Source of the DNA: Deltaproteobacteria bacterium
Lineage (GTDB): Bacteria > Desulfobacterota > Binatia > UBA12015
Assembly (NCBI GenBank): GCA_016874795.1
Contig: VGTG01000020.1
Coordinates: forward strand, 1 to 50,430
Direction of reading: 5' to 3'
DNA: 50,430 nt
This document shows, one piece after another, positions 1,894 through 4,069 of the stretch. Under the pieces are notes generated by a model. It saw nothing but the letters and a program-made list of their open reading frames with translations. It did no database searches and was not told the DNA's origin. The stretch's first letter is position 1. The number at the start of each line of letters is the position of its first letter. The translations under genes and the position numbers were made by a program.

Positions 1894-1987
1894 AGAGTCT
1901 GTGAATCAATCCCCTCCCGTCGCCGGAAGGCCGATGCATCCCCGCCTCGACCTTCCGGCTCGGTCCGGGGATTGACTCACAAACTCT
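1894..1987. repeat. Nested long hairpin directly behind a stop codon
   Basis: The outer arms are 1894-1914 and 1967-1987, 21 bases each with two mismatches (CAATCCCC facing GGGGATTG at the inner end). Inside them a second perfect 9-bp stem, GCCGGAAGG (1922-1930) with CCTTCCGGC (1951-1959), forms an inner hairpin. The right arm touches the TGA of the copper-protein gene on the minus strand. The position suggests a transcription terminator for that gene; lack of a T-run and the great length suggest it may instead be a dispersed palindromic element. Confidence 0.7.
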
Positions 1988-3888
1988 CAGCCGCCGTGGT
2001 GCGAGTGATCCGACTGCGAGTCCGCGACCGCGGCCGCGTGGTTCATGTGCGAGGTCGCGCAGCCCGAGACGTGCGGCAACGCGGGACCGCTGTAGAGCGA
2101 CCGTCCGTTCTCGTCGACATCGTAGAGCCCGCCGGCCGCGGACTCGAGGCCCTCCGCACGGCTCACCGCGCTCGGATCGACGTACGCGGCACCGAAGAGG
2201 TTGAACATCTCGTTCTCGGTGCTCTCGCCGCCGGTGATGCGGCAGGCGTCGCACCAGCCGTCGCCGGCTCCGGGGGACGTGTCGCACGCGGCGTCGTCAC
2301 CGACGCCGTTGCACGGCGCGCCGATCTTGCCCTCGTTCACGCAAGCGACCGGCTTGCAGATGCCGAGCTGCTCGCCGTTCCGGATCGGCTCCGGCAAGCG
2401 CGAGTAGCGCGTCACGAGCTCCACGTCGGGCGAGCCGTCCTCCTTGACGCCGTTGTTGAAGAGGCCGCAGTAGCGGAGCGTCCGCTCCTTCGGATCGGCC
2501 GAGTCGAAGGCGAGCGGCGGATCGTACCGCTGCCGCACCGGGTCGTTGTAGATGAAGCTCTCGTAGACGCGCGTCCCGTCCGGCAGATCGATCGTGAACT
2601 CCTTGCCGTGCTTGTGCGTGTGCGACGTCAGCTCGAAGAGCCGCGCGCCCTGCGGCAGCACGTGATCGCCGCAAACGCGCTCCGTCGTGAACGGAGGGGC
2701 CTTCGGCGCGAAGATCAGATGCGCGTCGAAGATGCTGTTGACGGTGAAGCGCTGGTCGGTCGCATAGAGGTAGTTGATGCGGCCGTTCATCATCGTGTCC
2801 TCGCCGGTCAGATTGAACGCGTGCGAGTTCCAGTAGATGACGCCCTTCGCCGGGAGCTGCGCGAAGACGCCGTCATAGAAGACCTGGTGCGCCTGCGCCT
2901 GCTGCGCGCCGCCGACCGGGATCGACGGCCCGTTGCCCGGGCCGAAGCCGATGCACGCGAAGGACGGATCCTGGATCTCGCTGATGCACTGCCCGGAGCC
3001 GCAAGAGCCGAGGTCCTTCGGATCGCAAGCGGCGCCGGCTTCGTCGCCGCCCGCGCACGTCCACTGCCCGAAGTCGGGCGCGTTCACGTCGATGCCCTCG
3101 GGACGGAAGTTCTCGGTCGGGTAATAGAGGATCAGATGGTGGCTCTGCGGATCCTGCCGCAGGTCGAAGCCCTTGAAGCGGAACCAGCCGCCGCTCGGGT
3201 CCATGAACTCGTCGGGAACCTGATCCGTCACGTCGTAGTACGTCGCGAAGCAGATCTCGCGCTCCGTGCCCGCCCGGAGCGGCCACTGCGGAAGCACGAG
3301 CTGGAACCCCTCGTTCTCCGCCGGCGGATCGAGCGGCTCGATCGTGATCGGCTTCGGCTCGGGCAGACACGCGTCGAGGAGACCTTCCGTTCCGCCGACC
3401 GTGCCGGTCTCGGGAGCGCCCGCGTAGATCCACAAGCGCACCGCCTCGAGCTCTCCTGCGGAGAGCGGCGGAAGACCGTTCGGCATCGGCGCTCCGTTGA
3501 TCTCGACGGATCCCGGCTCCGTCGCCGCTGCGAGCTTCAGCCAGAGGTAGCTCCGCGTGCGGTCGCCCGGAGTGACGAGCGGCTTCGAGCTTCCGACGGA
3601 CGGCTTCTCGAAGAGGTTGTCGTAGGCGACCTCCGGCCGGAGATCGAGACCGCCCTGCGCGCTCGAGCCGTGGCAGACGTCCTGCGTGCAACCCTTCTTC
3701 TCGAAGATCGCGTCCTGGATCGCCTCGAAGGTGCCTTCGTACGCGGTGCCCGCGTCGCACTCCGCGGGCGGCTCGGGCGGAGGCTCGTTCGGCGCGCCAC
3801 CGGTGCTGGAGCCGCCGCCACCGCCGCAGGCCCAGAGCCCGGCGCAGCCGATCGCGAGGAGCATTCGCGCGTATCCCGTGGTCCTCAT
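1987..3888 (-). CDS. Secreted lipoprotein: cytochrome-like N-terminus plus type II copper monooxygenase-like domain
   Basis: 633 aa. ATG at 3888 is chosen over upstream GTG 3903 because a GGAGG sits 8 bases before it. A signal peptide ends in LWACGGGGG, giving a lipoprotein with a Gly/Pro linker. Residues about 50-150 contain CTQDVCHG (a C-x4-CH variant of a haem site) followed by GGLDL and later MPNGLPPLSAGELEAVRLWIYAGA, as in planctomycete-type cytochromes. The second half has paired histidines SHHLILYYP and then ELTSHTHKHGKEF, the order of CuH (HH) and CuM (HxH) ligands in peptidylglycine/dopamine monooxygenases, with many cysteines between. The tail is His-rich. Known family role: copper-dependent hydroxylation; the substrate here is unknown. 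The haem assignment is less certain than the copper fold. Confidence 0.75.
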   Translation of the reverse strand: MRTTGYARMLLAIGCAGLWACGGGGGSSTGGAPNEPPPEPPAECDAGTAYEGTFEAIQDAIFEKKGCTQDVCHGSSAQGGLDLRPEVAYDNLFEKPSVGSSKPLVTPGDRTRSYLWLKLAAATEPGSVEINGAPMPNGLPPLSAGELEAVRLWIYAGAPETGTVGGTEGLLDACLPEPKPITIEPLDPPAENEGFQLVLPQWPLRAGTEREICFATYYDVTDQVPDEFMDPSGGWFRFKGFDLRQDPQSHHLILYYPTENFRPEGIDVNAPDFGQWTCAGGDEAGAACDPKDLGSCGSGQCISEIQDPSFACIGFGPGNGPSIPVGGAQQAQAHQVFYDGVFAQLPAKGVIYWNSHAFNLTGEDTMMNGRINYLYATDQRFTVNSIFDAHLIFAPKAPPFTTERVCGDHVLPQGARLFELTSHTHKHGKEFTIDLPDGTRVYESFIYNDPVRQRYDPPLAFDSADPKERTLRYCGLFNNGVKEDGSPDVELVTRYSRLPEPIRNGEQLGICKPVACVNEGKIGAPCNGVGDDAACDTSPGAGDGWCDACRITGGESTENEMFNLFGAAYVDPSAVSRAEGLESAAGGLYDVDENGRSLYSGPALPHVSGCATSHMNHAAAVADSQSDHSHHGG

Positions 3889-3896
3889 GAGACGAT

Positions 3897-3901
3897 CCTC
3901 C
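3897..3901 (-). promoter_or_regulatory. Ribosome binding site fixing the start of the copper protein
   Basis: On the minus strand GGAGG lies 8 bases before ATG 3888. It overlaps the start of the longer reading frame at GTG 3903, which can therefore be discounted. Confidence 0.7.
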
Positions 3902-4069
3902 ACCTTTGGTTCTCCCTCGCGTTTGCGGCTCCCGTAAAGGCAGGTCCAGGCTGCTTCGGCCCTCCGGACGATCCGGCGCGGTGAACGGTCCGGGGCGACG
4001 AAGGTCGACGTGCGGCCGGTGCCGTCCCCGGCGCTTCAGAAGGGAAGCCCGCCTGCCGATGCATCCCGA

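Follow-up and report, generated by a model that had tools for sequence, protein, structure and literature searches.

A predicted exported lipoprotein fusing a cytochrome c domain to a PHM/DBH-type dicopper module, and its bacterial relatives

Layout of the gene and of its product

The window, i.e. the whole stretch of 50,430 nucleotides analysed here, carries on its reverse strand (1987..3888) a gene for a 633-residue exported lipoprotein, in which a haem c domain and a dicopper module of the PHM/DBH type were recognised from the open reading frame and from family alignments. All the features described below lie on that same strand. Translation starts at the ATG at 3888, preceded 8 nt upstream by GGAGG (3897-3901) as read off the sequence, and an in-frame GTG at 3903 offers a longer alternative start. 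The signal peptide (3826..3888), recognised from the sequence, carries the lipobox LWAC, the cysteine of which, C21, is found in 108 of the 125 aligned rows and is likely to be lipidated. Downstream come a linker of low complexity, a first domain some 140 residues long (residues 41-180; 3349..3768), a copper-type module of about 400 residues (residues 182-590; 2119..3345) and a His-rich tail (residues 606-633; 1990..2073). This tail appears disordered from its sequence and from the model, residues 610-633 having a pLDDT under 50, and would perhaps function as a copper-loading tail; it is partly common to a few close relatives (L003, L020 and L021).

Along the chain, the motifs follow one another as C67-x4-C72-H73, S-H250-H251 and H423-T-H425-K-H-G, which is the order C-x4-CH, SHH and HTHKHG that a first-pass annotation had pointed out in a single exported protein and had read as an electron-feeding haem domain fused to a type II copper hydroxylase.

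The copper module and its relation to PHM and DBH

PHM and DBM are ascorbate enzymes of animals and model enzymes for electron sharing between two distant coppers: O2 and substrate meet at CuM, CuH gives the second electron and ascorbate reduces both. In animals, amidated hormones and noradrenaline come from this machinery.

Searched as a whole against Pfam, the window protein returns no family at E 1 and stays below the cut-offs of Cu2_monoox_N and Cu2_monoox_C, such a cut-off being a database label and not a property of an enzyme; a PDB sequence search with the protein or with alignment A1 (27 rows) likewise gives nothing meaningful. The AlphaFold2 model, built on alignment A2 (49 rows), reaches a pLDDT of 86 and a pTM of 0.82, and its 25 best Foldseek matches are all DBH and PHM (E 7e-8 to 1.5e-5), the best one being DBH. 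With VIA-align, residues 182-590 superpose on PHM with a Z score of 15.3 and an rmsd of 3.5-3.9 Å over 265 residues, and on human DBH (4zel) with a Z score of 14.9, the next, unrelated folds coming at a Z score of about 8.

A second line of evidence runs through L017, a distant paralogue from the same genome, which passes the cut-off of Cu2_monoox_C (PF03712) and can be aligned with A2 along most of its sequence (E 1e-27); used singly as queries, L017 and the L074 neighbour gave no matches. PF03712 matches occur in 15 of 58 genomes, and the PF03712 proteins of relatives were gathered in alignment A3 (15 rows), from which five of the 19 PF03712 loci (L129-L147) are absent as they offer no usable reading frame, namely L129, L133, L137, L141 and L147. 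Against the PDB, the A3 profile reaches rat PHM with an E-value of 6e-13 and DBH with one of 1.5e-6, with its HH, H and HxH falling on the HH, H and HxH of PHM and its EHC on the EMC of PHM. As for the A2 and A3 profiles, hhalign aligns them at E 2.7e-43 over 383 columns, with both domains in order and the five His ligands in register.

Via the A2-A3-PHM profiles, and in keeping with conservation, the three-His site CuH (CuA) is in register with that of PHM: H250 and H251 (3136..3141, within the SHH motif at 3136-3144) correspond to H107/H108 of the rat enzyme, and H356 (2821..2823) to H172. Regarding CuM (CuB), made of HxH and a methionine, H423 and H425 of the conserved HTHKHG motif (2605..2622) are placed by profile on H242/H244, and M561 (2206..2208), because it falls outside the A2-A3 hhalign block, is placed on M314 by its conserved motif TENEMF and by order. 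M561, in T-E-N-E-M-F, supplies the Met ligand that the first-pass annotation had advised looking for after HTHKHG, and the type II monooxygenase-like nature that it had proposed for the copper half is borne out, in sequence and predicted structure, by a PHM/DBH fold and by the complete set of six copper ligands; the grouping of the His residues into two Cu sites, to be sought by structure prediction, is supported by the predicted fold and the alignment, not by distances. The model and the two-step profile chain thus support residues 182-590 as a predicted dicopper module of PHM/DBH fold.

The likeness to rat PHM (EC 1.14.17.3) concerns this fold and the copper ligands, which come in the same order, whereas identity is about 11% and the window protein is a lipoprotein with a fused haem c domain, in a family having longer loops that hold extra conserved cysteines. 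Differences also extend to R240 and N316, mostly replaced in the window family, which together with Y318 are the peptide-carboxylate residues of PHM. At the Arg240 position, 35 of the 49 rows have S, T or N (Thr in the window protein), and at the Asn316 position 39 have I, V or L, asparagine occurring there in five rows, including that of the window protein (N563); L, I or F usually fills the Tyr318 position, where the window protein has Phe. Since these residues are mostly not kept, peptide amidation by the window protein seems unlikely. Just like the window protein, DBH has a domain in front of its copper module, but this is a DOMON domain instead of a cytochrome c, and the electrons of DBH come from ascorbate.

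Ligand conservation was assessed on 132 aligned rows, i.e. 122 distinct genes after removal of 10 double entries, L001, L002, L018 and L101 having been left out of the alignment as double, the window itself or fragments; L074_2 and L142 represent one gene, as do L035 and L113. Ten residues are putative metal ligands (C67, C72, H73 and M135 for the haem; H250, H251 and H356; H423, H425 and M561) and are nearly invariant among these 122 distinct relatives. For the copper sites, H250/H251 are found in 120 distinct rows (2 gaps), H356/H423/H425 in 119 (3 gaps) and M561 in 112 (9 gaps and one Ile). The gaps at M561 belong to fragments, to L017 (from the His branch), to L094 and to L105, and the sole Ile comes from the distant L074_2, which is misaligned there and possesses an EDEMC of its own. 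In both A1 and A2, the five histidines are invariant, and M561 is absent from one A2 row only, as a gap in L094. The latter (L094:5866-7635) is a window-type gene whose product is devoid, towards the C-terminus, of the segment with the EMF methionine. As the ligand columns are conserved across 122 distinct genes, an occurrence of the motifs by chance was ruled out.

The haem domain

The first domain, delineated from alignment A4, its PSCyt1 matches and a model of the isolated domain (pLDDT 92), contains the haem attachment motif C67-TQDV-C72-H73 (CTQDVCH; 3670..3690), of the CX4CH type, which is a rare haem motif, and M135 (3484..3486), the probable sixth haem ligand. C67, C72, H73 and M135 are each present in 118 of the 122 distinct rows; the four others are gaps, accounted for by three N-terminally truncated fragments and by L074_2, the haem domain of which lies at the opposite end. 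All window-type rows complete at the N-terminus have the haem motif, and CX4CH rather than CXXCH is found in 117 of the 118 distinct rows having it.

Against PSCyt1 (PF07635), the window domain scores 16.6 bits (E 0.013) for a cut-off of 22. Matches at E 0.1 or better are obtained for 18 of 49 isolated domains (best 5e-5), and three family genes from G008 stand above the cut-off (30.3, 23.9 and 23.3 bits vs. 22). Members above the cut-off thus carry the likeness of the N-terminal domain to PSCyt1; the difference lies in the motif, CXXCH in PSCyt1, as in the three G008 genes, vs. CX4CH in most members of the window family. In relatives L113, L148, L149 and L150, CXXCH stands where the other members have CX4CH, and the copper motifs follow downstream. 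Taken alone, the haem domain finds weak matches in PDB sequence searches as well as with Foldseek, where the best one is the alpha subunit of Kuenenia hydrazine synthase (5c2v; E 0.82), a different enzyme; with a Z score of 6.4 and an rmsd of 4.9 over 109 residues at 25% identity, such a weak match does not establish kinship by itself. In the window's genome, three cytochrome c assembly matches were found. Altogether, sequence comparison supports the N-terminal domain as a putative planctomycete-type (PSCyt1) cytochrome c with H73 and M135 as probable axial ligands, and the cytochrome half of the first-pass annotation stands in this form, on sequence and predicted structure.

The same motif could be read quite differently, namely as a structural disulfide in a domain without haem, a reading for which the rarity of CX4CH as a haem motif and the model, least sure around the motif (a block of pLDDT 67), could be invoked. 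The pair behaviour expected of such cysteines belongs to C44 and C174, not to C67 and C72: among the 128 motif-bearing rows, 124 have both C44 and C174, two have neither and two have just one, and the haem-bearing A3 rows lack both of them while retaining CX4CH. Because C44/C174 covary and C67/C72 stay constant, and because relatives with CXXCH exist, some of which pass the PSCyt1 cut-off, a disulfide at C-x4-CH, which the first-pass annotation had itself raised against its own reading, was rejected; with H73 and M135 being kept as well, it is highly improbable.

Besides the fusion, the window's own genome contains a stand-alone stretch resembling the cytochrome domain only (L016, C38:18269-18664; 44% identity), which may be a small cytochrome in its own right.

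Family diversity and proposed function

The window's genome has 18 matching places, i.e. the gene itself, 12 further long paralogues (each aligned over more than 500 residues of the query, with 49-63% identity) and five partial or distant ones. The search for relatives covered 58 genomes, that of the window among them, and family matches are found in 41: all 14 genomes of the same family, each with between 8 and 25 places, and 27 of the 44 others. The expansion is unusual, with copies scattered over contigs and at times in tandem (L054, L062, L072 and L084); G001, G031 and G051 harbour 25 places each. A scan of named genome records yielded 178 relatives, 80 of which were kept, labelled as Deltaproteobacteria, Candidatus Binatia, Myxococcales and the like for MAGs, and also as Gammaproteobacteria, including the Halieaceae strain HTCC2148. 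In a phylum-wide sample of 297 genomes, the window-type profile matched five (with at most 4 candidates scored per genome) and PF03712 two, all from the window's own class, and a plasmid collection gave no match to the window protein or to L132. In the copper-domain tree, where L143 and L074_2 form long branches of unsure placement, the gammaproteobacterial clade groups with two paralogues from the window's genome (100/99), a placement suggestive of a transfer of the family between phyla.

The pairing of haem and copper exhibits several variations. Five of the seven gammaproteobacterial members inspected (L107, L109, L114, L117 and L122) have a second N-terminal CXXCH domain, matching Cytochrome_CBB3 at 7e-4 to 4e-6 and located about 250 residues before the CX4CH one, and their chains hold two haem motifs and two copper sites; L118 and L123 are without it. 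The order is swapped in L074:6462-8792 (= L142; 777 aa), which adjoins a window-type gene and in which the copper module comes first, followed by a weak DUF4215-like stretch and a C-terminal CX4CH cytochrome domain. The sister PF03712 branch (L017:868-2301, on C60 of the window's genome, and L130-L146) displays a natural all-His dicopper site, with or without a CX4CH domain, and a histidine takes the position of PHM Met314 in 13 of the 15 A3 rows (NEHCNLFAF). Six of these 15 rows (320-372 residues) have no haem motif; the A3 branch of the copper module thus manages without a fused haem. As these haem-less rows form one clade nested inside the haem-bearing His branch (100/100, with moderate support for the nesting), the fused haem was likely lost there.

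Regarding published work, neither a haem c-PHM fusion nor a bacterial PF03712 member was the subject of any paper found in the literature searched, outside which lie most subscription journals and all bioRxiv preprints, and the words 'bacteria' and 'cytochrome' are absent from a passage of PMC6529398. The fusion architecture may well be listed already in domain databases. That bacterial homologues have hardly been studied, as the first-pass annotation had put it, agrees with this survey, the PF03712 / Cu2_monoox papers dealing, by their titles, with animals and one fungus.

The fold, the ligand sets, their conservation and the fusion are supported by computation. The product of the window gene is probably an exported lipoprotein that joins a cytochrome c of the planctomycete type to a PHM/DBM-like module of the non-coupled dicopper monooxygenases, with the haem replacing ascorbate as electron source. 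We infer an electron flow from haem to copper and a hydroxylase activity on a substrate, which could proceed as follows. Haem c would be attached to C67/C72 with H73 and M135 as axial ligands, CuH would be held by H250, H251 and H356, and CuM by H423, H425 and M561; the haem would accept electrons one at a time, from the respiratory chain or from a periplasmic cytochrome, and pass them to CuH, which would relay them to CuM, where O2 would be activated and a C-H bond of a substrate hydroxylated outside the cytoplasm. The haem would stand in for the ascorbate of the animal enzymes, and electron entry is its simplest reading, given that no window-type row with a complete N-terminus has the module without it. 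The qualifier 'self-sufficient' used in the first-pass annotation is nonetheless too strong since something must still reduce the haem.

The haem might have another role in a genuine hydroxylase, i.e. sensing the redox state or O2, docking to another cytochrome or draining electrons, as the haem-less relatives of the sister branch could suggest; yet an electron path fits better with a fusion present in all N-terminally complete rows, with the swapped order seen elsewhere and with the second haem of Gammaproteobacteria, which makes such a role unlikely. Equally unlikely is a module that would have the fold and ligands of PHM and not be a hydroxylase, but a copper-binding, copper-storing or electron-transfer lipoprotein using haem and coppers as a redox wire. 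Genomic context, which brings neither substrate evidence nor a conserved operon, would suit it: the genes around the window gene, including those for a sulfatase, a GH141-like protein, an amidohydrolase and an alkyl sulfatase, give no substrate hint; among the window and 80 loci, no conserved neighbour gene indicates a substrate or redox partner, and when their 632 predicted proteins (81 sequences, one heuristic ORF caller) were clustered, none of the neighbour groups extended beyond 8 of the 81. Thirteen long copies in one genome, unusual for an enzyme, and the histidine replacing the CuM methionine in the sister branch also speak for it. Storage, however, would not need the full ligand set in that order, and all six ligands are retained in relatives down to 37% identity, the CuM methionine in 112 of the 122 distinct rows and with nine of the ten remaining being gaps.

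Returning to the haem-fed hydroxylase, the paralogues probably differ in substrate, and the fusion suggests that respiratory electrons can take the place of vitamin C in driving chemistry of the PHM/DBM type. A broader proposal, which we put at even chances, is that bacteria possess a large family of PHM-type hydroxylases driven by respiration. Ascorbate would be replaced in them by one or two fused haem c domains, more than a dozen copies per genome would serve to oxidise many different extracytoplasmic substrates, and a sister branch would have an all-His CuM. In a bacterial version with a built-in and optically visible haem donor, the electron entry step could be watched directly, and the swapped, doubled and lost haem domains, together with the natural Met-to-His change at CuM, offer ready comparisons for the purpose of the CuM methionine. 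Such a bacterial version would also be a first lead to the role of these enzymes in bacteria.
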